Origin: Methanomassiliicoccales archaeon
Lineage (GTDB): Archaea; Thermoplasmatota; Thermoplasmata; Methanomassiliicoccales; JACIVX01
Reading direction: 5' to 3'
DNA length: 64,000 nucleotides
NCBI GenBank assembly: GCA_038850735.1
Contig: JAWCLO010000006.1
Coordinates: 1 to 64,000 of the forward strand
Position 1 is the first letter of the stretch. The number at the start of each line of letters is the position of its first letter. The notes below the pieces were generated by a model. That model saw only the letters and a program-made list of their open reading frames with translations, was not told where the DNA came from and made no database searches. Made by a program: the position numbers and the translations under genes. Positions 40,308-60,451 of this stretch are shown piece by piece.

Positions 40308-41348
40308 GTGAAGCCAGACCGCTCCGAAGGGGAAGAACAGATAGAATTCGATTGTCCTGAATGTGGCACGCATATTGTTGGTGAGGTGACAAAGTGCCCG
40401 AAATGTGGTGTCGAATTCGTGATCGAGGAAGTTTTGGAGGTTGAATGTCCCAATTGTGGGGCGGTCGTTTCGGCAGATCTGGAAACATGCCCAAAGTGCA
40501 ATGCGAGACTTCAATCTACGGAAGAGGCTAGTGTTTTGGAGGGTGAAGGTGCCGAAGCGCCCTTGATGGCTGCGAAAGAACGTGAGAACGAGCTGCGTAG
40601 GCAATTTCCTGCGCTCGTTGAGGAGGTCAAGTCGCTTCTTTCAATAGCAAGCGAATTTAACATAGATGCGAGCGTTGCAAAGATCTTTATTGACAAGGCT
40701 GTGAGGGCTGGAAAGCAGAGGAACATAGAATCTGCAGTGGCATTCGTGCGGGAGAGCCTCGAAAAGGCAAGAGAGGCCATTGAGGAAAGAATTCTAACTG
40801 ATATAGAGCGGCTTGAGAGACTCGCAGAAATTACACAGAAAACGGGCTCTGATCCCAAAGAAATTTTCCAGTCGCTGGAGAGCATCAGGGTGAAAAAAGC
40901 TCAGGATGATCTAAGGGGAGCTCTTATGGAGATCAGAATCGGCATGGATACGGCTCGCAGGATCACAGGACGTTACGTCGAAGCTAGTGAGTTATGCGAA
41001 AGTCTTGAGAAGTTGATTAGGGACTCAGAACACCTTTACATCGATGTCAGAGAAGCGAGGAGGCTTCTCAATGAAGCAAAGGACGCTGGAAAGCACGGTG
41101 ACTGGACAATGATGGGCGTTCTCGCAAAGAAGGGAAGAGAAACCATACTGAAACTTCTGCCCGACACGCTCAAAGATGAATTGAAGAAGTGCAAGGAAGT
41201 GCTTTTAGAAGCGAAGGCAGAAGGGAAGGAGGTAACTTCTCTCATAAAGATTCTGAAGGAAGCAGCTGTTGCTTTTAAGAAAAGGAATCTGGAGGAAGCC
41301 CTTGAAAGGCTCATCGAATTTAAGGCGGAGCTGAAGAGAATCTCCTGA
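40308..41348 (+). CDS. Double zinc-ribbon protein with long helical region
   Basis: This 346-residue protein has GTG as start. Two zinc ribbons (C-P-E-C-G with C-P-K-C-G at residues 16-33, C-P-N-C-G with C-P-K-C-N at about 47-64) are followed by about 250 residues of nearly all-helical, charged sequence (repeated A-L-x-x-I/L and A-K-x-A-G-K patterns), likely helical hairpins or coiled coil. No enzyme motif is seen. It is convergent with the DnaA-like gene, ending 32 bases from it, and its ribbons are very like the one in that protein. A TATA-like run at about 40256-40272 precedes it. A scaffold or adaptor role is a guess. Confidence 0.8.
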   Translation: MKPDRSEGEEQIEFDCPECGTHIVGEVTKCPKCGVEFVIEEVLEVECPNCGAVVSADLETCPKCNARLQSTEEASVLEGEGAEAPLMAAKERENELRRQFPALVEEVKSLLSIASEFNIDASVAKIFIDKAVRAGKQRNIESAVAFVRESLEKAREAIEERILTDIERLERLAEITQKTGSDPKEIFQSLESIRVKKAQDDLRGALMEIRIGMDTARRITGRYVEASELCESLEKLIRDSEHLYIDVREARRLLNEAKDAGKHGDWTMMGVLAKKGRETILKLLPDTLKDELKKCKEVLLEAKAEGKEVTSLIKILKEAAVAFKKRNLEEALERLIEFKAELKRIS

Positions 41349-41380: not shown

Positions 41381-43516
41381 TCATGAAAGCTTTATCACTT
41401 CCATTTCTCGCTCGAGAATAGATCGGTCCTGAATCCTGAGGCTCTCTTCGCTCACCGAAACGAGGAATATTGACTGGGTCTCTGAAATCTCGTCAACAAC
41501 GCTCCTGATAAACCTGATGACGCCTTCAAATGTTGTGTAGCTTATCAGGTATTGGATATCATCGAGGAGGATGATGCTTTTTTCGTTCGAATGAATGAAT
41601 TCTTCAATTACAAGCATGATTCTCTCCAGCGAAGGCGGGAGAGTTTGGGCTGTTGTTGACTCCCGATCGGTAAGCCAGTAGAGAGTTGCCCTGAGTTCTC
41701 CCATCCTCTCCATGAGGTTTCTAGGATGTCCCCGCGTTATCGCCATCCCACTGTAGCCCTCCTGGAGTTTTGACACGAATGCTCTGTAAGCACCCTCTGG
41801 CCTGGATTCTTCAAGGAGATAGCTGTGGCCCCCTTTTAAATCAAATCTCGTTTGGCTGATGCGCAGCCCAGCAGCCTCGCTGCTTAGAACTTCCCTTGCC
41901 AAGTTAAAATCGATGTTGACATTCATAAGCGATGAGAACGCGACAACTCTGTTGAGGCCTCCATGGAGCTGCCTGATGTTGTTCCTACAAACGTCAGCGA
42001 TGAATTCAAGCACTTCTTTCGGAACCGATAAGCCCTCCTCTCTGATCTTCCTTTCAAGAATCGCAACCCTTGTCTCATATTCAGGCTGCTGTATATCTGC
42101 GATGAGCCCCGATTCGAATCGAGTAATCAGTCTATCTGAAATCGAGGGGATATCCTTCGGAGGCCTGTCGCATGCAAGAACTACCTGCTTCCTATTCTCG
42201 ATGAGCTCGCTGAGTACGTGAAAGAGCTCTTCTTGCATTCTCTCCCTACCGGCAAGGAATTGGACATCATCGATCAGCAGTACGTCCGCGCCCGCATAGT
42301 GCCTTCTGAAGTCATCAATTGCACTCGTTGCAAGAGCCTCAATGAGCTCCCCCTCGAATTTTTCCATCGATGTATAAAGAACAATAAACTTGTTTGACTT
42401 CGAAAGAATCTCATTTGCAATCGCATGAAGCAAATGGGTCTTACCCATTCCTGACCTTCCATAAATGAACAGCGGGTTGTACATGGTGCCGGGGCTATTA
42501 GCTACCCCCCTCGCTGCAGCTTCAGCAAACCTGTTAGAATGACCAACTACAAAGCGAGAGAAGGTGAGCTGAGGGTTTATCGGGCGTCCATATCGGGGCT
42601 TTTGAATGACAGTCTCGCCGCATTTCAAACAGAGCCCATCGCGATCGAGAGGTTCTCCGCATCTTGGGCATCTTGCTGTGCTAGCTGCACCTGATGACTT
42701 CATTTTGTGATATTGAATGATGAGATCGTATACTCTATCGATCCTCTCATTTTGTTTTTTCCTCTCAACGTCAAGACGAATTTGTCTCTCGGCTAATTTC
42801 TCCTTTTCAGAAGTTTCCAAGCGTTTAACGAGGAATTCAAACTCCATTTCTGCATCAGCGACCCTATCAGGATCTTTCGCTTTCTTAGAAATCGATCGTA
42901 ATTCCCTCTCTATTCCTTCACCCTTTACAACCCTCAAACGCTCAAGTAACGCTCTTGCCCTATCGATATTCTTTTCGTAATGATCGATAACTAGCGTCGC
43001 TTTCTCAGGGTCGCTCAGATAAATGTCAAGAACGCGAGAGACATCGTAGCCTTCTTGTGCCCACGTTTTAATTTTTCTTGCCGCTATGCTATCGTCATTT
43101 GCCAGAACACCAAGGTCGATGCTCATCAACGGTGATCGGGATTTCCACTTCATTATGAGACTCTCGTACGCAATTCGAGCTCCTGAAGCCTTCTGCTCAA
43201 CCAATGCTGGGTCAACGTCTGCATGTATAATTAGCGTGGCAGTTGGGGATTCTGAGTCTTCCAAAATGAAATCGAAAGCCCTCGCTCCGGAATAACTCTC
43301 CGTGGTGATAATTCGATCCTTCTCGATGATGAATCTGTAGAAGGCGCCGATTGGAAGACCTTTGTTTGTGAGTATTGTACCATGAGAAGCAATACGGTCA
43401 TCTTCATATAAAACTTCAATGTATCCAGATACGCATCTCGCTTTACAGATTTCTATAATATCTGCTAAGACGCCATATCCACCCTTTCTTTCTTCGATGA
43501 TGTGTCCTTCAGGCAT
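41381..43516 (-). CDS. DnaA-like AAA+ ATPase with N-terminal archaeal domain, zinc ribbon and DUF835-like C-terminus
   Basis: This 711-residue protein has several parts. Residues 1-110: a beta-rich domain resembling DUF2226 (S-G-Y-I-E-V, G-L-P-I-G-A). Residues 125-275: helical and coiled coil. Residues 283-302: zinc ribbon C-P-R-C-G/C-L-K-C-G. Residues 312-545: a DnaA ATPase domain with N-P-L-F-I-Y-G-R-S-G-M-G-K-T-H-L-L-H-A-I (Walker A), V-L-L-I-D-D-V-Q-F-L-A-G (Walker B), A-C-D-R-P-P-K-D-I (sensor 1), R-L-I-T-R-F-E-S-G-L (Arg finger) and N-I-R-Q-L-H-G-G-L-N-R-V. Residues 564-711: DUF835-like. DnaA domain IV, which binds DnaA boxes, is absent. The ATG at 43516 is about 25 bases from TATAAT at 43537-43542, hence leaderless. 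Confidence 0.85.
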   Translation of the reverse strand: MPEGHIIEERKGGYGVLADIIEICKARCVSGYIEVLYEDDRIASHGTILTNKGLPIGAFYRFIIEKDRIITTESYSGARAFDFILEDSESPTATLIIHADVDPALVEQKASGARIAYESLIMKWKSRSPLMSIDLGVLANDDSIAARKIKTWAQEGYDVSRVLDIYLSDPEKATLVIDHYEKNIDRARALLERLRVVKGEGIERELRSISKKAKDPDRVADAEMEFEFLVKRLETSEKEKLAERQIRLDVERKKQNERIDRVYDLIIQYHKMKSSGAASTARCPRCGEPLDRDGLCLKCGETVIQKPRYGRPINPQLTFSRFVVGHSNRFAEAAARGVANSPGTMYNPLFIYGRSGMGKTHLLHAIANEILSKSNKFIVLYTSMEKFEGELIEALATSAIDDFRRHYAGADVLLIDDVQFLAGRERMQEELFHVLSELIENRKQVVLACDRPPKDIPSISDRLITRFESGLIADIQQPEYETRVAILERKIREEGLSVPKEVLEFIADVCRNNIRQLHGGLNRVVAFSSLMNVNIDFNLAREVLSSEAAGLRISQTRFDLKGGHSYLLEESRPEGAYRAFVSKLQEGYSGMAITRGHPRNLMERMGELRATLYWLTDRESTTAQTLPPSLERIMLVIEEFIHSNEKSIILLDDIQYLISYTTFEGVIRFIRSVVDEISETQSIFLVSVSEESLRIQDRSILEREMEVIKLS

Positions 43517-43977
43517 CCCATCTCTTTTTATCAATTATACCGATTACATTATCATGATTTTCCGTTAAATCCTTTCTGTAGCCAATATTTAATCTTTCGT
43601 GGAGAACTTCACATAAATTGACCGCTATCGATTATGGCAATATAGGAGCGGGCGATCGTGCCCTCCTCCCCCAACAACTTCTTCTATGCATTCTTTCGCT
43701 ATTTCTATGTTGATATAAATTCGCATGCCCACACATGCATGCGAAACCTTGAAAAGACTTTTCAGGCGGGAGCAATCCCAACTCTCTAGTATGTGGCTTT
43801 ATGGCCTTGAGGAATCGACAACAAACTAGTTTGATCCTGCTATCCGACCCCTTCGGCGAGGGAAGAATTCAGATTTTCAGCATCAAATATCTGGAGTCCA
43901 TGACATCAGCCTTTCTTCACGCTTTTGATTTGTAAGAAAATTTTAAATCAGCGTGAAGATTTGTGTGGCCGAGTGAT
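43517..43977. other. Intergenic region, DnaA-like gene and tRNA promoters
   Basis: About 460 bases. It holds the TATA box of the DnaA-like gene on the minus strand and, at 43939-43949, a TTTTAAATC element suited to the tRNA promoter. Nothing else recognisable is seen. Confidence 0.45.
43537..43542 (-). promoter_or_regulatory. TATA box of the DnaA-like gene
   Basis: The minus strand reads GGTATAATTG here. Transcription about 25 bases on would begin at or next to the ATG at 43516. This supports that start over the in-frame TTG at 43534. Confidence 0.5.
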
Positions 43978-45457: not shown

Positions 45458-47768
<2,311 letters not shown>

Positions 47769-47777
47769 GGTGTTTTG

Positions 47778-50700
47778 ATGGAAGAAAAGACCGTACGAAT
47801 AATTCAGCGACCTATTGAAACGGAGATGAAAAAGTCCTACATCGACTATGCAATGAGTGTTATCGTTGGGAGAGCTCTACCGGATGTCAGAGACGGTCTA
47901 AAACCGGTCCAGAGGAGAATCCTCTATGCGATGTATGACATGGGTCTGTACTCAAATAAACCTCATAAGAAAAGCGCTCGTGTGGTTGGCGAATGTTTTG
48001 CCGCGGGGACAAAGGTACTGACATTTCGGGGGCTTGTTCCGATCGAAGAAGTAGAAAGAGGGGATATCGTCTTTACACAGTCTGGATTTGGGCGTGTTCT
48101 GGAATTGTATGAGATGCCCCCGAGACCGCTCGTAAGAATCAGATTTGAAAATGGTATGGAACTCTTATGCACGCCAAAACAGCTCTTGAAAGTCTATGAG
48201 CCATCGAGTGGGATCTTTTGGAAAGCTGCAGAAGAATTGCGGGTTGGGGACATGCTTGTATCTCGATGTGTGTATCCTTGCGGTCTCGAATATCCCCAGA
48301 TGGAAATATCCAATGGAAATTTAGTCACCATCGACGAGTTATTTGCCTATTTGTACGGCTGTTTGCTGGTGGTAGGTCAGTACTCCGAATCTTATGTTGC
48401 CTCTGTGCGTGAGATCGTGGAATCTCTAGCCTCTCGATCAGGAAGGATATACACTGCCGCGCCCCTCATTATCAGGAAAAAAATTTCCGCACTTTGCAGC
48501 TCACCTGCAGTCAAATCACTGGGGCATATTGAGATGTTTGAGGAACTGCTTTTAAGAATCTCAAAAGTAGTGAATTCCCGCTCAAGCCTTGCCGAGGAAT
48601 TTTTCAGGTCACCTAGATCCGTCTTGGAATCTCTCGTATTGGGGGTAATCAATTCTTCTGCATCATTTTCCGATGGAAAGATTAGAATTCCTTTCAAGTC
48701 AAAGAGGCAGGCCGCTGACATCCAGCTAATCCTGCATCATTTGGGAGTGATTTCTAAAATAATTATGTCACCAGCTGGTGAAAATGAAGGCGACCGTCTT
48801 GATCAAATGGGGTACTTCAGAGCTACCACGGTTGAATCAGAATCATCCTGTACCATTGAGATTAGTGGCACGCACGCAGATCTAATGAAACGGCTCTTGG
48901 AGCCTGAGCCACCTTATGACGATCACTCAAGGGTCCCCCATCCAGCTCAGAATTTTAGCTGCCCGAAGGAGTGCTATGTCGACGAATATATCAATCAGGT
49001 GCAAGGTCTGCCTATAATGTATTGCAAGGATTCAGACGTTGTTGCAGAAGCCACGGCCTTCTGGAATTCTGATGAGCCTTTGCCAGACGATATCACCTTC
49101 ATCCGGGTACTCTGCATCGAGACCGCTCCGGCCGAAATGACGTATGATATTGAGGTTGAGGGATCGCACGAGTTTTTAGCTAATGGCGTAGTTTCCCATA
49201 ACTGCCTTGGTAAGTATCATCCTCATGGAGATATGGCTGTTTATGATGCTCTCGTGAGAATGGCCCAAGACTTTTCAATGCGATATCCTCTGGTCGATGG
49301 CCAGGGAAACTTCGGCAGCGTAGATGGAGACTCAGCTGCCGCGATGAGATATACTGAATGCCGTCTATCTCCCATTGCCGAGGAGCTCCTGGTTGATATA
49401 GAAAAGGACACCGTCGATTTTGTCGATAACTTTGATGGAAGTTTGAAGGAACCAGCAGTTCTACCCGGGAAATTTCCTAATCTCATTGTCAATGGATCAT
49501 CTGGAATAGCTGTAGGCATGGCCACAAACATCCCACCTCACAATTTGAGGGAGGTGGTCGATGCTATCGTCAATTTAATAGACAATCCGAGCATGGAAAC
49601 ATCTGAGTTGATGGAATTCATCAAAGGGCCAGATTTTCCAACCGGCGGCATCATTTATGGTATAAGTGGGATTTTGGAGGCTTATTCCACCGGAAAAGGC
49701 AAGTTGAGGGTGAGAGCAAGAACTCAGATTGAGGAATTTGAGAACAGGAAGAGAATAGTTGTTACAGAAATCCCCTACCAGGTCAATAAGTCTAACTTGA
49801 TCGAAGCGATCGCAGAGCTCGTTAGGGACAAGAAAATCGATGGCATTGTTGATCTTAGAGACGAATCAGACCGCGAAGGCATGAGGGTTGTTATCGAACT
49901 TCGAAAGGATGTGATGGAGAATATCGTACTTAATCAGCTGTTCTCTCATACTCAGATGGAGGTTACGTTCGGAGTCATAAACCTCGCCCTCGTCAACAAC
50001 GAACCAAAGATACTGACACTTAAGGAAACTTTGCAGCATTTTATTGATTACAGAAAAAATGTTGTCACGAGGAGAACGAAGTTCGAGTTGGAGGAGGCAA
50101 AGAAGCGAGAACACATTTTGCAGGGTTTGATGAAGGCGGTTGACGCGCTGGATGATACCATTATGCTGATTCGAGCTTCGAAGACTCCCGAGGAGGCAAG
50201 GGTCGGGCTTATCAATCGATTATTGATTACTGAAGAGCAGGCAAAGGCTATTCTTGATATCAAACTCCAGCGCTTGACAGGTCTTGAAATTGAAAATCTT
50301 AAGAAGGAATTCTTTGAAATCGAAAATAGAGTGAGGGAATTGGAGGGCATTCTCGCGGATGAGAAAAAGATCTTGGAAATCATCAAGAATGAAATGCTCG
50401 AGATCAGAGAAAAACACGGGGACGAGCGAAAAACTGAGATCGTTCACGATGTGCAGGAAATAGACCTAGAGGATCTTATTCCCGATGAAGAAATGGTCAT
50501 CATTGTTACGCATGATGGCTATATAAAGAGGGTGCCTTTAGATACTTACAAGCAGCAAAGAAGGGGCGGCGTCGGTCTCATAGGAATGGAAACAAAAGAG
50601 GAGGATTACGTGACTAACCTCTTTGTTACATCAACGCACAATTATCTGATGTTCTTTACGAATTTAGGAAAAGTCTACTGGCTCAAGGCATATCAGGTGC

Positions 50701-51515
50701 CGGTGGGAAGCCGTCAATCCAAAGGAAAACCTATCGTCAATTTGCTCCCTGCAATGGCTGAGGGTGAAAAAATACTGGATACCATTGCTGTTAAAGAATT
50801 TGATGAAAACCATTTCCTCGTTTTTTCAACGAAGAAAGGCTTCATCAAGAAGACACCACTTACGGCATATTCCCATGTGAGGTCGTCAGGAATAATCGCA
50901 TTGGGCCTTACGGAAGGTGATGAGCTCGTCGATACGAGGCTCACCGACGGCACGAAAGAGATAATCATTGCTACAAAAGGCGGGCAAGCGGTGCGGTTTA
51001 GCGAGACAGAGGTGAGACCGATGGGAAGGGCGGCAAGAGGAGTCATTGGAATTAGGCTTAATCCAGGTGATGAAGTCGTCAGCATGGCCGCAGTATCAGC
51101 AAACTCGATGCTCTTATCCGTTACTGAGAATGGATACGGAAAACTCTCCCCCGTTCCAGAGTACAGGAAGACGAGGAGGGGCGGGAAGGGCGTAATTACG
51201 ATCAAAACTGGCGAGAGAAATGGCAAGGTCGTCTCAGTGCTCGATGTTGCGGAAAATGACGAGCTCATCATCACGAGTACACAGGGGATGGTCATTAGAA
51301 TTCCGGTCTCTGATATTAGAGTAATGGGAAGGGCCACGATGGGCGTCAAGATCATGAAGCTTCGGGAAGGCGATAGGGTTACTGCGGTGGCTCGACTCAT
51401 AGGTGAGAAGGAAGAAAAAATGGTCGAGATGGCCCAGATAACGGAAGATAAAGATATGATTCCAAAAGAATCACCAGAAGATCTTTTCGAGGAAGAGGAT
51501 GAGCCAGGAGAATAG
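47778..51515 (+). CDS. gyrA: DNA gyrase subunit A containing a large intein
   Basis: The precursor has 1245 residues; removal of a 403-residue intein leaves an 842-residue GyrA. The catalytic Tyr (A-M-R-Y-T-E-C) is residue 525 of the precursor and 122 of the mature protein, the same number as in E. coli. After the breakage-reunion domain and coiled coil, the C-terminal beta-pinwheel contains the GyrA box Q-R-R-G-G-V-G near residue 925 and a second T-R-R-G-G-K-G. The tail is acidic. The start is the ATG at 47778, nine bases after the gyrB stop. With GyrB it adds negative supercoils to the chromosome. Confidence 0.97.
47994..49202 (+). other. Intein in gyrA with decayed LAGLIDADG endonuclease region
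   Basis: A 403-codon intein starts C-F-A-A-G-T-K and ends V-V-S-H-N, followed by Cys as the +1 residue ([10 protein letters not shown]). The splice site after A-R-V-V-G-E corresponds to the mycobacterial GyrA intein site. Block B (C-T-P-K-Q) and block F ([11 protein letters not shown]) are present. The middle 150-170 residues resemble a LAGLIDADG endonuclease, but motif 1 reads L-Y-G-C-L-L-V-V-G (Val for the catalytic Asp) and motif 2 G-V-I-N-S-S-A-S (no Asp). Splicing is probably active, homing probably lost. Confidence 0.9.
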
Positions 51516-51769: not shown

Positions 51770-52486
51770 GTGCTGGTGCGCATTATGTTCAGAAATTCAA
51801 TTCAGGGGCTTGAGAAAATATTCAGGACCGATATTGACGCGCCGAAGGTAGTGCTGGTAACTGGGCCGCCTGGATCTCTCAAGACGAGTTTTACTTATTC
51901 TCTCATATCTGCTTATCTTGAGAAAACAGATGAATGCGGTCTATATGTTACATTGGAAGAGACTGCGGACAGTCACCTCAAGAATATGAGAAGCCTAGGA
52001 ATAGAGATCGCTCCAAAACTCGAGATTTCCGATTTTACCGATCTCAGAGATCTAGATGAGGTGATCGAGTCGGAGGCGCCGACGGACTACCTGCATTTTG
52101 TTGAGCAAGTCATTTCGTATTATAGAAAGAAGCACCAGGAGAAATTTACTATCTTTGCACTGGACTCACTTGGCGCACTGTATTCTCTTATGGACGAAAC
52201 GAAAGGTATGCGGAAGAAAATGTTCTATTTCTTCAAAACGCTCCGTGATCTCAATCTCATTTCATTCATTATAATGGAGAAGACTCAGGGGGAATCCGTT
52301 GAGTTTGTTGGTAACGAGCTATTTTTGGCCGATGGTATCATCGAGCTTGGAATTGATCGCACACGTGGAAAATTAGCGAGGTATGTCAGAGTGGAAAAGA
52401 TGAGAGCATGTGAGCACAGCATGGAAAAACATACGATTGAAATAGGAACAAATGGGCTGATGGTATTGGGCCCCACGCTGGTGTAG
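51770..52486 (+). CDS. KaiC-like RecA-fold ATPase
   Basis: This protein of about 238 residues has a single KaiC-like domain: Walker A V-T-G-P-P-G-S-L-K-T-S at about residues 30-40, V-T-L-E-E-T near 61, Walker B F-A-L-D-S-L-G-A-L near 127. The Leu before Lys in Walker A is unusual but within tolerance. The start could be GTG at 51770 or ATG at 51785; a TATA-like TTTTATTAATGG at about 51736-51747 favours the earlier, leaderless one. It follows gyrA by 254 bases with its own promoter and precedes a coiled-coil zinc-ribbon gene by 58 bases. A signalling or DNA-associated role is possible; the actual function is unknown. Confidence 0.8.
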   Translation: MLVRIMFRNSIQGLEKIFRTDIDAPKVVLVTGPPGSLKTSFTYSLISAYLEKTDECGLYVTLEETADSHLKNMRSLGIEIAPKLEISDFTDLRDLDEVIESEAPTDYLHFVEQVISYYRKKHQEKFTIFALDSLGALYSLMDETKGMRKKMFYFFKTLRDLNLISFIIMEKTQGESVEFVGNELFLADGIIELGIDRTRGKLARYVRVEKMRACEHSMEKHTIEIGTNGLMVLGPTLV

Positions 52487-52544
52487 GTGATGTTTGGCGA
52501 AGTAATTGTGGTTAATATCATAATATCGCGATAGCTATAGGTGA

Positions 52545-53798
52545 ATGGAAGGTGATTTGACAGGAGGAGTTGTTGTGTCGTCGCAGGACAGTATTCCAAT
52601 ATGGCAGGTTATTGAAGAATTCAAAGAAAAGATAAAAACTCAAGATGCGGAAATGAAGAAACGTAAGGAAGAGCTCGATGCAAGGGAATCTGAGCTAAAA
52701 GAGCGCAAAAAGCAGCTCGACGAGTACGCTGAAGCTCTGAGCAAGAAAGAACATGAACTAAGAGACTGGGAATCCAAGTTGATCCCTAGGGAGCAGGCGG
52801 CGAGAAAAGCTGAGAAGGAAATGGAGGCGCTTGAAAAGGAACTAAGAATAAGAGAAGAGGAGCTGCATAACGCCCGACTCATAATTGAGAAACGCCAGAA
52901 GGAAATTACTGAACAGGAAACCCAGATTTTGAAGTTGAGAGAAGAGGCAAAGGGATATGAAGAGCGTATCAAGAATGCAGCGGAAAAGGTGCTCGCTATT
53001 GAAGAAAAAGTCCTTGCTGGTGAACAGGAATTGAAGAGGGTTCTTGAAGAGATTTCTGGAAGGCGCGAGGAATTGCTTGCGAAGATCAAGACATTCCAGG
53101 AACAGCAGGAGTTGCTCGAAGAGAGCAAGTCGATTCTCATCAATGAACAAAAGAGACTTGTTGAATGGGAAAAGATATTGAACGACCGTGAAGAAGCCCT
53201 CAGTGCGCGCGAGAGAGTTCTCGTGAGGAGGGAGGAATTGCTTTCTGGGCTACCAACAGGCGAGGAACTTGCACCGGAGTCCGCAGTTGAACCGTCTCAT
53301 GGTGTATCGATTTCTGACGTCCCAGTTTCAGAAACGGCGACCGTGAAAGAGACTGGAACTATGGCGCCCACAGCTTCTGTATCAGGTGAAGAGAAGCCCG
53401 CTTCTAGCGGGGAAATCAAGTCAGAGTATGTTTCTGAGGAAAGGGCTGTTTTGGGAGAGAAAGGCAGCGTGGTGGCAGAAGAAGTGCCGATCAAGGAGGA
53501 GCAACCTCTGTCTCGTCCAGAATACCGGGAGACATTCTGCCCAAATTGTCGTACAATAGTTGATGTTGATGCGGAAAAGTGCTATGCATGTGGATATTTA
53601 TTGAAGCAAAAGGAGAGGGCGGGGGAAGTGTCCGTACAGGCAGAAGAAACTGAAAAGGTGCCTGGAGAAAAGCCCATGGCGGAGACGCCAGTATCAGCAG
53701 CTTCCGAAAAGACTGAGGAGAAGCCGGAAGGCGAGGCAGAGAAAGAAACGGTAGTTAAACGTCCTATATCAATCAAAAAAATTATAAGAAAGAAATGA
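52545..53798 (+). CDS. Coiled-coil protein with zinc ribbon
   Basis: This 417-residue protein has no known family. Residues 20-230 form an almost unbroken coiled coil (repeats such as R-E-E-E-L, R-K-E-E-L-D-A-R-E-S-E-L). A low-complexity Pro/Ser/Glu linker runs from about 235 to 325. A zinc ribbon C-P-N-C-R/C-Y-A-C-G sits at about 332-350. A second linker follows and the basic end reads K-R-P-I-S-I-K-K-I-I-R-K-K. The gene lies 58 bases after a KaiC-like gene and probably shares its transcript. The basic tail resembles R-R-I-I-K-R-P near the end of the giant surface protein downstream. Confidence 0.75.
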   Translation: MEGDLTGGVVVSSQDSIPIWQVIEEFKEKIKTQDAEMKKRKEELDARESELKERKKQLDEYAEALSKKEHELRDWESKLIPREQAARKAEKEMEALEKELRIREEELHNARLIIEKRQKEITEQETQILKLREEAKGYEERIKNAAEKVLAIEEKVLAGEQELKRVLEEISGRREELLAKIKTFQEQQELLEESKSILINEQKRLVEWEKILNDREEALSARERVLVRREELLSGLPTGEELAPESAVEPSHGVSISDVPVSETATVKETGTMAPTASVSGEEKPASSGEIKSEYVSEERAVLGEKGSVVAEEVPIKEEQPLSRPEYRETFCPNCRTIVDVDAEKCYACGYLLKQKERAGEVSVQAEETEKVPGEKPMAETPVSAASEKTEEKPEGEAEKETVVKRPISIKKIIRKK

Positions 53799-54304
53799 TC
53801 TCTCTGATGCAGGAAGTTGCCTTATTGCATTGAAGTAATTTATTGCAGGCCACCGTGAATAGATTGCACTTATCCTATTTTTCATTTTTATTGTTGGCTA
53901 TACATGAGGGAAAGTATTTCATTTAAGAATTGTGAAAGTGACAGAAATAAGAAAAAGATGTTTCTGTTTTATTGGTTTGATCTGGTATTTAGTAAAACAA
54001 TTTCGTTGTTCACGGCGTTCAATTTTTTCGGTCTAATGCTGGATTGATGCAGCAATTTGCTATCATGAAAAAAAATTTCTACGATGCCATGTGTTTTATG
54101 AATATAGCCCAGTAACTCAGAGAAATGAGTATATTTTATACAATTCGAATGTAAGTTCCCATACTCCTCCAAAATCAATGATTCATCAATCTCCAATAAT
54201 GCTTATTGATCATTGCTTCTTATCATTTTATATTACCTGAAAAGATATGTATTTATAATCACTAATATCTAACATCATCTGGCGGAAATATATTTGGTGG
54301 GACA
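53799..54304. other. Intergenic region before giant surface protein
   Basis: About 505 bases, A+T-rich. ATTTATAATCACTAATATC at about 54250-54270 fits a promoter for the giant gene at 54305. A minus-strand frame from a TTG at 54196 to 53969 (75 codons) is preceded by TAATATAAAATG at a promoter-like distance but has no recognised family; I do not call it. Confidence 0.45.
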
Positions 54305-57300
54305 ATGTTACGGTCAAATTTGGTAGTTAAATCCATAAGCATGCTGATCGTCTGGAGCTTTGTTTTTTCCTCTCTGGCTGGGCTATTTCTTTTCGCTTTG
54401 CCGGAAGGAGTTCGAGCATCATCACCAAGTGGGGATGTCATAATCGGCGAAGATTATCCTAATGCCTACTGGGAGATAAATGGCACAATATGTAACATGA
54501 GAGGAAACCTCATCATTCGGTCAGGCGGGATAGTTAATGTTGTAAACGGTGGCATAGTTTTCAACCAAGACACTGGTCCTGACGGCGTTGCGGGAACCTC
54601 CGATGATCATGTTTATACTTTGGTTATTGAAGACGGTGGAAAACTCATATTGAACAATTCGATTCTTACCACAAATCTCTATCAAATCAACGCTTTCCCC
54701 AGTCTAGGAGTCGTGGTGAGGAACAACGGAATTTTGGAAGTGATTGATTCCACGCTAAAATTCCCTGGCCACATTCTCATCGATAACTCGACACTTATAA
54801 TGAGAAATTCGAGGACCTCTGGGCACTCAGCATCGGATATTATTGCTTACTGTGATCAGACGCAATTCCCTGTTCAATTTTATGATGATTTTGCGACAAT
54901 CGCTCTTATTTCTTCTGAAGTATACTTTTACGATTGTGAGATTGAGGATCTCCTGGAAGGGGTAGCAATCCCAACATCGTATGATCATCAATATCAATTT
55001 GCATGGGACGACGGATCCAAAGTTACAGTTGTTTACAATCTGACGAGAAATGTCAACGCGATTGGGACTAGCAATACGGCAATCGGAGAACTATCTGATT
55101 TGTTGTTTGACGATAGCAATCTATTTGCTGTAGCCCCAGGTGAAATCCTGGCAACAGATGGTATTAATCTAGGTGGCTTGGCATTTGACAAGGGAGATGG
55201 TGTTACAGTAACTCTTTATGTGAAATATAAGACGGACCCTGGTTACGATGGAAGTAATGTAATTGAATGGTCTTTCAGGAATGGTGCATCATCATCATCG
55301 GGAATTCAGCCATCAGATACAGCTGAACCATATAATCCTTCAATAAACGAAGAAGTCACAGCATATGCTACACTTCCAGACATGTCTTCTACGGATTTAA
55401 GCAAGATAAACATTACTTTTGAAAACGACGATAGCCTCGATAGGAATGTTTACTTCAACCGTATCTGGGTCGGAATTGAGATCCCACTGCCTAGCTATAG
55501 AAACATCACCCTTGTGGGCTCGACAAAGTTGACGGCAATCAACACTTATTTATCAGTCGATTTTTCAGACGATCCATCGGAGCATAATCAGCTGATTGTC
55601 CGGGATTCTTCGGTTGCTTATCTTTACGGAGTTTACGCGGATATGGAGCAAGGAACGGTGGGAGCATCAGCATATCTAACAGAAGACAATACGCTGACCG
55701 TACTTCCATATGCCAGAGGAGGGGATGACGATACTGGCCAACCGCTGGCAAATCTAATGGCTGATGATAATAACTATTATTCAGTTGTAAACGGAGCTAC
55801 AATGCACATATCTGGATTTAATGCGAGCGCACTTTCGGGTGATCTTTCTGATGTGGTGTTGCATGTAAAATATATGACAACATCAGGATTTAGCCCTAGC
55901 AATTACGTTCAATATTCATTGGACGGTGTGAATTATTTCAATACCAGTATAAGACCGATTCGCACTACTATTGAAACTGAAGATTCCTTCGATCTCCTTG
56001 GCGCAGGGATAAAAACATGCGAAGAAATGTCAGATCTACAAATCAGATTTGTAAATGATGGTGGTGATTTAGCATATATCGAGACCATCTGGATAGAGAT
56101 CGTAATGAGGCCATCCATATATATCTATAGATGGCTCAATCTCACAGTCTTAGATTCTCAGTCGCTACCAGTTGCTAATGCAAATGTTACTGTAACAATC
56201 TCTGGTACGAATATCTCAGCGTATTACATTACACCTGATGGAATACAATCAATTCCGCCGAACCAATTGCTCACATATCTCGGGAGAAATGAAACAACAC
56301 TTAACAAGACCGGGCAGTTTGGTGAAGTTCTTATTCCGCTTTTATGGGAAGTTGTTAATGAGAGCACCCTTCCAAACGCGCATCAACTCGTTGGTGGCTA
56401 CTCTGCAAAACTCGTATATAGGAACGTAACAGGTTTCGTATATTATGCGTCGTGTGGGTTTAATTTTTCCGCATATCCAGCTATTGCTGAAGAGGATCAG
56501 GTAGTTAATAAAATAATACGAATGGAAGATCTTTCCGTCGACAAACCAGATCTGCTTGTTGAATCCTTAACATATAACCCTTTGACGATCTACGAGTACG
56601 ATGTAGTGACGATCACGGCAAAGATATCGAATTTCGGGGCAACCGCCGTATCTAACATCCTGGTTGATTTCTATGATTTCTACGCGGGGGTCACAACATC
56701 GATTGGAAACGCTACAATATCGACTTTGTCGCCGGGAGCTTATCAAGATGTGGAAATTGTTTGGCGTGACACAAGATCGGGTACCCACACAATTACTGTT
56801 GAAGTTGACAAAGCTGGAAAGGTACCAGAATTGAGTAAAGTCAATAATCATATGTCCAAGACGCTATTTGTTTTGGCACTACTGCCGGAACTTAGCATCA
56901 GTGATGGGGATATAAGTATTGAGCCTGCTGAGCTTTATACTGGACAGTTGGCATTCATCAATGCGACAATACACAACACCGCAGGAAAGAAAGACGCCTC
57001 AAACGTTTCCGTTGATTTCTATGCTGGAAACCCGCTGACGGGCGGAAGGTTGCTGGGTACCACATATATAGATGTGCCTTCTGGAGGATCAAACGTAACA
57101 CACTTCACCTTTATCCCCACTCAAATTGGCAATTATCCAGTTTACGTCTACGTTAATAAAGCCCAGAGAATACTCGAATACTCCTACAATAATAACATCG
57201 CAAGTAAGAATGTTCAAGTCGAGCTGTCAGCCGGCCCGAACGATCTTGTTGTCGACGATGACGACGTTTTCATGATCTTGCCTGGTACTTACTACTTCTC

Positions 57301-60300
57301 TGGAAATATCATCATCAAAGATAATGGAACACTCATTGTTGATTCAGCTACATTTACGATATATCAAAGGATGGTGGACGAATTCCTGATAGTTATTCAG
57401 GACAACGGATCGCTATTAGTAGATTCATCTACCCTTAACTCTAATCAGAACATCAAGACATACTTGTTCGATCACGCAACTCTAAAACTTAATGCTTCTA
57501 TAATAGGACCTACGCTTTCCGTTATGGCTGATGATAACGCGGAGATACAAATCATAGCATCAACGGCCCATTGCGAAATTATTGCCCCATCATCTTCCAA
57601 TGCAGTGATTACCGCAGTGAACTCAACCTTCACCAAGCCATTGGCGTCACTGGGCGGAAATTCAAAGGCGTATCTCACCAGTATAGCAGCTCCAAGCATT
57701 CAACCCAAGGAATCTGCTGTAGCGTTGCATTACAGATGGCTCACTGTGACCGTCTTAGACGGCGTCGGGATACCTCTCGAGGGAGCTTATGTCAGTATTA
57801 ATTACTACGTAAATGGCAGCTTATATGCAGGTGCAATTACGAACGAGAATGGCAAAGTTACAATAGCAGCTCTTTGTGATAGATTAACTTCTTCTTCGAT
57901 TCAATATGTTGGTTGGTACAAGGTTAACGCCACATACTGGTATGATGGAACTCCTTATGAAACAGATATCCCAATGGGCGTTTCACTGGCCTACTACGCG
58001 ACTCCGCTTGCTCGCAACGATAAATCCGTCGTCGTATCAATACAAAGTGCTTTGCCCGACTTGGATCCGCCATTCTGGGTTTCAGACACTTCTCCGGCAA
58101 GGGGTCAGTCGGTTGTACTAACAGCCAATATCACGAATAGTGGAGTGGTTCCGGCAAATGGTGTGGTTGTGAGATTCTATGACAATGCGAGTGTCATCAG
58201 CAATCATGTTATTGCATTGATTAATCCGGGGGAAACCGTCACCGTTAACACGACATGGGTCGCAGGATTGCCGCTCGGTGAGCACAATCTATCGGTTGTT
58301 GTAGATCCAGATAATCTTCTGAAAGAGCTAGACGAATCAAATAATGTCAATTACACTCTTGTTTACGTGCGTGGCGTGGCCCAACTTCGTGTCACAACAG
58401 GAGACCTTGTATCGGTACCGACATCTCCCGTGACAAATAGTACGGCAACGATCGTGCTTACAGTGCGAAACGAAGGCGATATTACAGCTGAAAATGTCAA
58501 TGTCACCTTCTATCAGTTGAGAAATGGAGGCTCGCTAGAATTCGTCGGCTATACACTTATAACCAGAGTTCTTGCGGGGAGCTCTGAAACAGCATCTATC
58601 TCATGGATACCAAGTCTACCAGGTGCTTGGACTATAGTTGCAATTGTAGATGAATTCAATGAGATTGAGGAAACTACTAAAGTCGATAACATCATAAATC
58701 AAGAAATCATCGTAAAGAATTACGGAGATTTGACTCCTACCACAATTGTTTTCTCACCAGCAAGTCCTCTGGCAGCAGGCACGCACATTAGAATGGATGT
58801 TACTGTTAGAAACATTGGAGAAAGTACAGCTGGAAGTGCCGTAGTTGAGTTCTGGTTGGATGCAATTGGCGGTTCTGGTACACTCATCGATGAAACATTC
58901 ACTGGTGCGATCAGCCCCGGTCAGACCGTTATCATCTCCGGCGAATGGGATGTGGAAATTTCATCAGGATTGAGTGCGCAGACCAGGACAATTTATGTGG
59001 TAGTGAATCCTGATTTAATAGTATCTGAAATAAGCTACTCAAATAACATTGCGAGCCAGCAACTCGTTATATATGATACAAGACCTGATATTCTGTTTTT
59101 AGGAGGTATAGAGGCGACCTTAGGAGGCACCGTAGTAGATGAGTTGTACATTGGAGAAACGGTCGTTTTGGGCGTTGAAATGAAGAACAGCGGATATGCT
59201 TCCGCTTTGGGAGTGAGTATAGCGTTTTACGCCATTGATGCAGATTTGATCCCGAGATATCTTGGCTCCATAACAAAAGACTTTGGAGTTGGCGCTACTA
59301 TCACTGGCAATCTCACTTGGACCGTAAATCTCACGGCGGGCACATATTCGATTGTTGCAAGAATCGACCCCAATGGGCTTATCGATGAGTCAAATGAAGA
59401 TAACAATGAGCTCTCTTCCACCCTCAATATCTCAATACCCACAGCGGTGATAATTGTCGATTTAGGAAATACATACACTTACAAAGCTGGCGAAGACATG
59501 GTCGTGAGCGGTCGCGTGAAAAATCAGGTGACCGGCAATCCGCTATCTGGTATAGCACTGGCCATTTCGCTAGTTGATTCAAATGGCGATGTCGTAAGCG
59601 GGCCGTATACAGTAACAACGAATCAAAATGGATACTACAATGCTGTAGTCTATATACCGATAAGCGCCTCTGGAAGTTGCAGTCTTGTTGTTACGGCGAC
59701 GATCTCAGGAGAAGAGACTGATAAGGTCGTAGGAATCACCATCGAGAAAGGATTTACAGAAACAGGCATCGAATGGTGGGTTTACGCGCTCATAATCGCG
59801 ATTGTTGCTGCCATCATCATCGCATTCTCAGTTTATCTGTACAAGTACGGTCTTGGTAAGATGGTGGAATGCGGCGAATGCGGAGCCCTCATTCCAGAGT
59901 CTTCCCGCCGGTGCCCCAAGTGCGGTGTAGAGTTTGAATCAGGAACTGTTAAATGTAGTGAGTGCGGTGCGTGGATACCTGCCAATTCGTCAGAATGTCC
60001 TGAGTGCGGAGCGAAATTTATCACTGAACCACTTGCGGAAGAGGAAGACGAATACATGAAGAAAATGAGGGAACAGTACAACCGTTTCATTGAGGTTTAC
60101 AGGGAACAAGCCAGGAGCGAGCTAGGGAAGAAATATTCTGAAGAAAAATTCAGGGAATGGTGGAAGAAACAGCCAACATACATCTCATTTGAGAAATGGT
60201 TGTCGCAAGAAGAGGAGAGGAGGAAGCTTGGTGCATTTGCGTGCCCCGTGTGCGGTACGCTGAATGCAAGGGGATCGACAGTGTGTCACAAATGCGGCAC

Positions 60301-60451
60301 TGTATTCGAGGGTGGGAAGGAGGAATTATCAGAGGCACCGCCAGAAGAAGAGAAGCGCAAACCGCTGAGAAGGATTATAAAGCGCCCCGCTGAGAAGAAG
60401 GAAGGTCCTGAGGAGAAACAAAAATCGGGAGAAGAGGAGAAACGAGAATAG
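54305..60451 (+). CDS. Giant CARDB-repeat surface protein with cytoplasmic zinc ribbons
   Basis: 2048 residues. A signal peptide (1-39) leads into beta-helix-like stretches (about 45-240 and 980-1140, rows of I-x-N-G and L-I-V-D-S) and further beta domains. At least six CARDB-type domains occupy about 745-970 and 1255-1720, recognised by N-x-G-x-x-x-A-x-x-V-x-V-x-F-Y and ending in E-x-N/D-x-S-N-N. Another beta-sandwich, then one membrane segment at about 1823-1847 (V-Y-A-L-I-I-A-I-V-A-A-I-I-I). The cell-side tail holds three zinc ribbons (about 1854-1904 and 1979-1998) separated by a helical region with W-W-K-K-Q-P-T-Y. Surface adhesion or envelope role likely; the ribbons inside are unexpected. 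Confidence 0.85.
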   Translation: MLRSNLVVKSISMLIVWSFVFSSLAGLFLFALPEGVRASSPSGDVIIGEDYPNAYWEINGTICNMRGNLIIRSGGIVNVVNGGIVFNQDTGPDGVAGTSDDHVYTLVIEDGGKLILNNSILTTNLYQINAFPSLGVVVRNNGILEVIDSTLKFPGHILIDNSTLIMRNSRTSGHSASDIIAYCDQTQFPVQFYDDFATIALISSEVYFYDCEIEDLLEGVAIPTSYDHQYQFAWDDGSKVTVVYNLTRNVNAIGTSNTAIGELSDLLFDDSNLFAVAPGEILATDGINLGGLAFDKGDGVTVTLYVKYKTDPGYDGSNVIEWSFRNGASSSSGIQPSDTAEPYNPSINEEVTAYATLPDMSSTDLSKINITFENDDSLDRNVYFNRIWVGIEIPLPSYRNITLVGSTKLTAINTYLSVDFSDDPSEHNQLIVRDSSVAYLYGVYADMEQGTVGASAYLTEDNTLTVLPYARGGDDDTGQPLANLMADDNNYYSVVNGATMHISGFNASALSGDLSDVVLHVKYMTTSGFSPSNYVQYSLDGVNYFNTSIRPIRTTIETEDSFDLLGAGIKTCEEMSDLQIRFVNDGGDLAYIETIWIEIVMRPSIYIYRWLNLTVLDSQSLPVANANVTVTISGTNISAYYITPDGIQSIPPNQLLTYLGRNETTLNKTGQFGEVLIPLLWEVVNESTLPNAHQLVGGYSAKLVYRNVTGFVYYASCGFNFSAYPAIAEEDQVVNKIIRMEDLSVDKPDLLVESLTYNPLTIYEYDVVTITAKISNFGATAVSNILVDFYDFYAGVTTSIGNATISTLSPGAYQDVEIVWRDTRSGTHTITVEVDKAGKVPELSKVNNHMSKTLFVLALLPELSISDGDISIEPAELYTGQLAFINATIHNTAGKKDASNVSVDFYAGNPLTGGRLLGTTYIDVPSGGSNVTHFTFIPTQIGNYPVYVYVNKAQRILEYSYNNNIASKNVQVELSAGPNDLVVDDDDVFMILPGTYYFSGNIIIKDNGTLIVDSATFTIYQRMVDEFLIVIQDNGSLLVDSSTLNSNQNIKTYLFDHATLKLNASIIGPTLSVMADDNAEIQIIASTAHCEIIAPSSSNAVITAVNSTFTKPLASLGGNSKAYLTSIAAPSIQPKESAVALHYRWLTVTVLDGVGIPLEGAYVSINYYVNGSLYAGAITNENGKVTIAALCDRLTSSSIQYVGWYKVNATYWYDGTPYETDIPMGVSLAYYATPLARNDKSVVVSIQSALPDLDPPFWVSDTSPARGQSVVLTANITNSGVVPANGVVVRFYDNASVISNHVIALINPGETVTVNTTWVAGLPLGEHNLSVVVDPDNLLKELDESNNVNYTLVYVRGVAQLRVTTGDLVSVPTSPVTNSTATIVLTVRNEGDITAENVNVTFYQLRNGGSLEFVGYTLITRVLAGSSETASISWIPSLPGAWTIVAIVDEFNEIEETTKVDNIINQEIIVKNYGDLTPTTIVFSPASPLAAGTHIRMDVTVRNIGESTAGSAVVEFWLDAIGGSGTLIDETFTGAISPGQTVIISGEWDVEISSGLSAQTRTIYVVVNPDLIVSEISYSNNIASQQLVIYDTRPDILFLGGIEATLGGTVVDELYIGETVVLGVEMKNSGYASALGVSIAFYAIDADLIPRYLGSITKDFGVGATITGNLTWTVNLTAGTYSIVARIDPNGLIDESNEDNNELSSTLNISIPTAVIIVDLGNTYTYKAGEDMVVSGRVKNQVTGNPLSGIALAISLVDSNGDVVSGPYTVTTNQNGYYNAVVYIPISASGSCSLVVTATISGEETDKVVGITIEKGFTETGIEWWVYALIIAIVAAIIIAFSVYLYKYGLGKMVECGECGALIPESSRRCPKCGVEFESGTVKCSECGAWIPANSSECPECGAKFITEPLAEEEDEYMKKMREQYNRFIEVYREQARSELGKKYSEEKFREWWKKQPTYISFEKWLSQEEERRKLGAFACPVCGTLNARGSTVCHKCGTVFEGGKEELSEAPPEEEKRKPLRRIIKRPAEKKEGPEEKQKSGEEEKRE

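Follow-up and report, generated by a model that had tools for sequence, protein, structure and literature searches.

Bacterial DnaA is the initiator of replication, the DnaA ATPase module is its core, and diverged forms of the module occur in Hda and in loaders. What is such a module doing in an archaeal protein that ends in a DUF835 domain? The protein is encoded in a Methanomassiliicoccales archaeon (assembly GCA_038850735.1), and we analysed the stretch of 64,000 nucleotides that carries its gene (the window; contig JAWCLO010000006.1, positions 1 to 64,000), which is part of a 122-kb contig in a genome that is 98% complete. The gene lies on the reverse strand at 41381..43534 and encodes 717 amino acids from a TTG start codon. 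An alternative ATG is located at 43516, but homologue alignment supported residues ahead of it; an earlier sequence-only reading had counted from this ATG, and its residue numbers are therefore 6 lower than ours.

The sequence-only reading had assigned residues 312–545 (its numbering) to bacterial DnaA domain III, and profile searches bore this out. The AAA+ core and lid of domain III span residues 319–551 (41882..42580, reverse strand), with the Bac_DnaA profile PF00308 matching residues 320–479 (42098–42577; E = 3.2e-60), and the DnaA motifs quoted in that reading were found in the protein. The closest PDB match was domain III of Bacillus subtilis DnaA (E = 1e-74; 51% identity over 236 columns). 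The DnaA equivalog TIGR00362 matched residues 228–554 with 326.4 bits, slightly under its cutoff of 343.9, whereas the competing profiles reached 99.9 (Hda, TIGR03420, which did not attain its cutoff of 194.8), 51.9 (IstB), 21.8 (RFC-L), and 14.5 bits (DnaC). The winged helix of Orc1/Cdc6 (Cdc6_C, PF09079) had no match in the protein. DnaA_N (domain I) and Bac_DnaA_C (domain IV) were likewise not matched by the Pfam profiles; the same profile library does detect domain I in a bacterial DnaA. Judged by its sequence, the protein is a DnaA-type ATPase and not an Orc/Cdc6, DnaC, or IstB protein, and it has no DnaA-box-binding domain, as had been claimed. It stands outside the DnaA initiator family and is a new architectural variant among the DnaA-clade AAA+ ATPases. 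PF00308 matches were also recorded in the Methanocaldococcus jannaschii, Haloferax volcanii, and Methanosarcina acetivorans controls and carry no weight in our reading.

Walker A and B, sensors I and II, the Arg finger, and the lid are all intact in the 717-aa protein, which retains every scored catalytic residue and both basic residues of the DnaA ssDNA-binding motif. Among 36 DUF835-type homologues the Walker A lysine was present in all, the Walker B DD in 34–36, the sensor I aspartate in 33, the Arg finger in 32, and the sensor II arginine in 30. The first basic residue of the ssDNA-binding motif was K or R in 30 of these 36 and the second was R in 19, the latter being frequently missing outside Methanomassiliicoccales. 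The Arg-finger region was degraded in families f35 and f43, which may, as a guess, be Marine Group II.

The remaining parts of the protein are of other kinds. At the C-terminus, where the sequence-only reading placed a DUF835 domain instead of domain IV, PF05763 matched residues 585–711 (E = 8e-22; 77.9 bits against a cutoff of 33.1) within a domain of residues 559–717 (41384..41860, reverse strand). A model of this domain built from two sequences, of moderate confidence (pLDDT 64, pTM 0.67), gave FlaH as the best Foldseek hit (E = 1.2e-4), followed by KaiC among others, and no P-loop was found in the family alignment; the domain is predicted to be a KaiC-like fold without a P-loop. DUF835 has been described as an inactive KaiC (iKaiC) that serves as an output domain of response regulators in Methanomicrobia and Thermoplasmata (Galperin et al., 2018, PMC5847659).

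The N-terminal alpha/beta domain (residues 1–122; 43169..43534, reverse strand) had been called DUF2226-like, a resemblance that proved weak: the match had E = 0.041 in the 717-aa protein, 5 of 17 homologues matched (best 5e-4), and the N-terminal profile found nothing in the PDB. A helical or coiled-coil region follows (residues 150–279; 42698..43087, reverse strand), taken from the family alignment, with helices at 141–279 in a low-confidence model. For the zinc ribbon (residues 285–309; 42608..42682, reverse strand), the CxxC...CxxC motif is present and supported by the alignment, but the profile match was weak (Zn_ribbon_3, E = 0.001), and the ribbon is missing from some homologues. The full-length AlphaFold model from two sequences was poor (pLDDT 53), and domain packing was not read from it.

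To place the protein among its relatives, we compared genomes across the phylum. Strong DnaA-domain matches were found in 22 Methanomassiliicoccales genomes, and the order gyrA-gyrB-thiC-[gene]-zinc-ribbon was kept wherever the contig reached, small local insertions aside. Phylum-wide, strong matches (E below 1e-21) occurred in 39 of 390 sampled genomes, one of the 39 being the contaminant G435; many more f35 and f43 genomes carry a diverged DnaA-like version, and homologues are spread over many more families across the phylum. The fusion of DnaA domain III with DUF835 was confirmed by Pfam in f1, f4, f8, f11, f12, f13, f17, f20, f21, f26, and f36, and by alignment in f2, f3, f6, f16, f18, and f19, so that it spreads over many families of Thermoplasmata and two further families. 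In the tree, the Thermoplasmata domain III formed a group near bacterial DnaA (support 93/80). A single archaeal group was not rejected (AU p = 0.26), and the deeper branches are compatible with one or several transfers.

Other architectures were also seen. Proteins of 1213–1407 aa in f29, f45, and f49 (L078, L082, L083, L103, L104) carry DnaA domain III towards the C-terminus; a C-terminal double zinc ribbon was confirmed in L078 and L103, and no DUF835 was found in the two proteins of this kind that were scanned. Proteins of about 430 aa in f29 (L091–L093, L117) combine DnaA domain III with a C-terminal tail unlike DnaA, and their genes share a conserved neighbourhood with, by eye, apparent isoprenoid-pathway genes and a tRNA-thiolation-type zinc-ribbon ATPase. 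The Thermoplasmatota MAG G435, in which Orc1/Cdc6 is also present, encodes a true bacterial DnaA with domains I, III, and IV (L080, G435:C23:3096-4466); this DnaA grouped with gammaproteobacteria in the tree, and its contig is MAG contamination.

Natural deletions were found among the relatives. In genera g24, g26, g29, and g30 of f6 the syntenic gene encodes only 335–370 aa, with the N-terminal domain (which is thus kept in ATPase-less orthologues) joined to DUF835 and the coiled coil, zinc ribbon, and DnaA domain absent. As these short forms make up one clade (100/100) nested among the long forms of the order, a single loss of the ATPase is the simplest explanation. Three f4/g6 genomes lack the gene altogether, and the partner gene described below is still in place. 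Both the DnaA-type ATPase and the whole gene are, on this genomic evidence, dispensable in relatives. As the sequence-only reading had suggested checking, the host genome contains two Orc1/Cdc6 matches (PF09079), on a contig other than that of the window, and no DnaA domain IV (PF08299) anywhere. Orc1/Cdc6 was present in all 27 genomes checked (the host and 26 further genomes, long and short gene forms among them), and domain IV was absent from these save in one contaminated MAG.

The sequence-only reading had also listed gyrBA and a zinc-ribbon protein as neighbours, and both are present. The zinc-ribbon/helical-repeat partner gene (346 aa; 40308..41348, forward strand) is convergent to the DnaA-DUF835 gene, with 32 nt between the stop codons. 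Many families have its homologues tail-to-tail with the DnaA-DUF835 gene (25 loci), and the two stop codons often overlap; the partner is conserved across the class and always convergent, an arrangement that is weaker functional evidence than an operon. Of 61 relatives, which are phylogenetically non-independent, 34 had both the partner and a long or short form of the gene, none had the gene without the partner, three had the partner alone, and 24 had neither.

Further along the forward strand of the window are gyrB and gyrA (45873..51515), an active KaiC-family ATPase with a P-loop (51770..52486; PF06745, E = 1e-35), a protein with a coiled coil and zinc ribbon (52545..53798), and a large protein of 2048 aa with a signal peptide, CARDB repeats, a transmembrane helix, and C-terminal zinc ribbons (54305..60451; CARDB E = 3.5e-72). 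The large protein is of surface type, with six CARDB repeats, one transmembrane helix at 1825–1843, and the zinc ribbons on the cytoplasmic side. The set of KaiC ATPase, coiled-coil zinc protein, and CARDB protein (51770–60451) recurs beside the gene pair in f13 and f20 and partly in f11, f16, and f19. The gyrBA neighbourhood was limited to Methanomassiliicoccales and f11, and gyrBA is a less conserved neighbour than the KaiC gene or the convergent zinc-ribbon gene; gyrase was rejected as a functional partner since it is not conserved as a neighbour outside these groups. Gyrase in the host's branch of archaea has been attributed to one bacterial transfer (PMC9348778). Within gyrA (47775–51515), the [12 protein letters not shown] site holds an intein (Intein_splicing, E = 6e-14; Hint_2), the relative L150 has one in its gyrB, and the lengths of gyrA and gyrB reading frames in several other relatives suggest further inteins.

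In some families the two domains are encoded separately. In f35 and f43 a DUF835-group gene lies directly upstream of the DnaA-like gene on the same strand in 7 of 7 loci, and Pfam confirmed DUF835 in both of the two upstream genes tested; in f49 the DUF835 gene comes after the DnaA-domain gene. In f38 (G166) domain III of the DnaA-domain protein is preceded by a signal peptide, an fn3-type domain, and a transmembrane helix, and the gene for this protein is followed by a KaiC-family gene and a gene for a 7TM-DUF835 protein with gaps of 2–16 nt, apparently as an operon. A possible operon at L084 (6509–11953) and L087 comprises a signal-peptide/fn3/TM protein that ends in a DnaA ATPase, KaiC, a 7TM-DUF835 protein, and another fn3 protein, and looks like a membrane signalling system. 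As the DnaA module is fused to DUF835/KaiC proteins in some lineages and encoded beside them in others, the two are tied to each other.

The sequence-only reading proposed that the ATP-switch machinery of DnaA had been reused for another job, such as DNA remodelling, signalling, or regulating replication. Reuse of the switch is supported by our data. Among the suggested jobs signalling fits best, because of the fusion to or adjacency with DUF835/KaiC genes and the transmembrane version, while replication regulation found little support, since the ATPase or the whole gene was lost in relatives in which the partner gene stays. Our best reading, held at about even odds, is that Thermoplasmatota took a DnaA ATP-switch module from bacteria and remade it as part of a signalling assembly that includes KaiC-family proteins. 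The capture of bacterial domain III, as AAA+ core and lid, would date from early in Thermoplasmatota, and the module would have become part of signalling-type proteins. ATP binding would drive DnaA-style head-to-tail oligomers through the Arg finger, making the module an ATP-dependent assembly switch. Input might come from the N-terminal domain, whereas one lineage may use a transmembrane/fn3 receptor for this; the output may be the docking of DUF835 onto active rings of KaiC-family proteins or onto other partners, and the zinc-ribbon helical-repeat protein could act as a scaffold. More tentatively still, the DnaA AAA+ module may belong to a phylum-wide signalling apparatus, being coupled to KaiC-family proteins as an ATP-driven assembly switch and placed, in some lineages, on the cytoplasmic side of a receptor in the membrane.

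The main rival to the signalling switch, which we hold to be rather unlikely, is a DNA-acting relative of DnaA that assembles on ssDNA by way of a DnaA-type ssDNA-binding motif, either to remodel DNA or to modulate replication or repair, as an Hda-like regulator or an ssDNA filament. It draws on an identity to DnaA domain III far above that to Hda, on the kept catalytic residues and first ssDNA-contacting basic residue, on gyrBA nearby in Methanomassiliicoccales, and on a downstream gene in f26 and f36 that resembles, by eye, RadB recombinase. Such a role sits poorly with the lack of the dsDNA-binding domain IV, the second basic residue often gone outside the order, the loss of ATPase or gene in relatives retaining Orc1/Cdc6, and the membrane-anchored version. 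As the ssDNA-contacting basic residues of DnaA are often kept, DNA binding by the protein is possible, and its residues would be compatible with an ATP-dependent filament on ssDNA. A DnaC/IstB-type loader of a helicase or transposase is much less probable: the weak matches to IstB, DnaI, and DnaC-like proteins are set against 326 bits for DnaA versus 52 for IstB, a match that extends through the DnaA lid, and no adjacent helicase or transposase gene.

That the protein works as a replication initiator, supplementing or replacing Orc1/Cdc6, is highly improbable, as homology to domain III is all that speaks for it, while every genome checked has Orc1/Cdc6, the protein has no DnaA-box-binding domain, and relatives do without the gene. 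Least credible of all is that the gene stems from bacterial contamination, from a chimeric contig, or from an isolated transfer of recent date. A bacterial DnaA contig truly contaminates the relative G435, but the present gene has syntenic orthologues in about 20 genomes throughout Methanomassiliicoccales, a vertical-looking tree, and archaeal fusion domains, and synteny rules out contamination or a chimera. Two further readings were considered and rejected. A scan of viral contigs found no relative, matches in phage collections being DnaA-like genes of less than 60% identity, and PADLOC returned only generic P-loop and coiled-coil matches for a defence system.

The protein differs in composition from the systems it resembles. 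With bacterial DnaA (TIGR00362; PDB 8bv3, 8btg, 3r8f) the protein shares domain III, the ATPase and Arg-finger residues, the lid, and the first ssDNA basic residue, but in place of domains I and IV it has DUF2226-like, coiled-coil, zinc-ribbon, and DUF835 parts, its gene is dispensable in relatives, and its host uses Orc1/Cdc6. Hda, the regulatory inactivator of DnaA, also has a DnaA-like AAA+ core and lid without domain IV; its profile scored well below that of DnaA, and its partner domains differ. Archaeal two-component iKaiC proteins (REC-DUF835, REC-PAS-PAS-DUF835; PMC5847659) have the same C-terminal DUF835, whereas the N-terminal partner here is a DnaA AAA+ module and not REC or PAS. FlaH of the archaellum and KaiC have a fold in common with DUF835, and active KaiC-family genes are nearby, but DUF835 has no P-loop and no archaellum genes were seen in the neighbourhood. 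Virus-associated archaeal AAA+ proteins of SSV have been labelled DnaA-like (arCOG07960, PMC4158269); the present proteins, set apart from these by description and not by sequence, are chromosomal, syntenic, and fused to DUF835. In the open-access PMC literature we found no paper with both DnaA and DUF835 and none describing DnaA-domain proteins in Thermoplasmatota, and a signalling role of this kind for a DnaA domain did not appear in the literature searched.

A catalytically intact DnaA module tied to KaiC-type domains shows a possible use of the DnaA switch away from origins, and the family lends itself to testing cleanly which DnaA residues are there for ATP-switching and which for DNA. 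For the annotation of Thermoplasmatota genomes, it means that a gene labelled "DnaA" need not encode a replication initiator.
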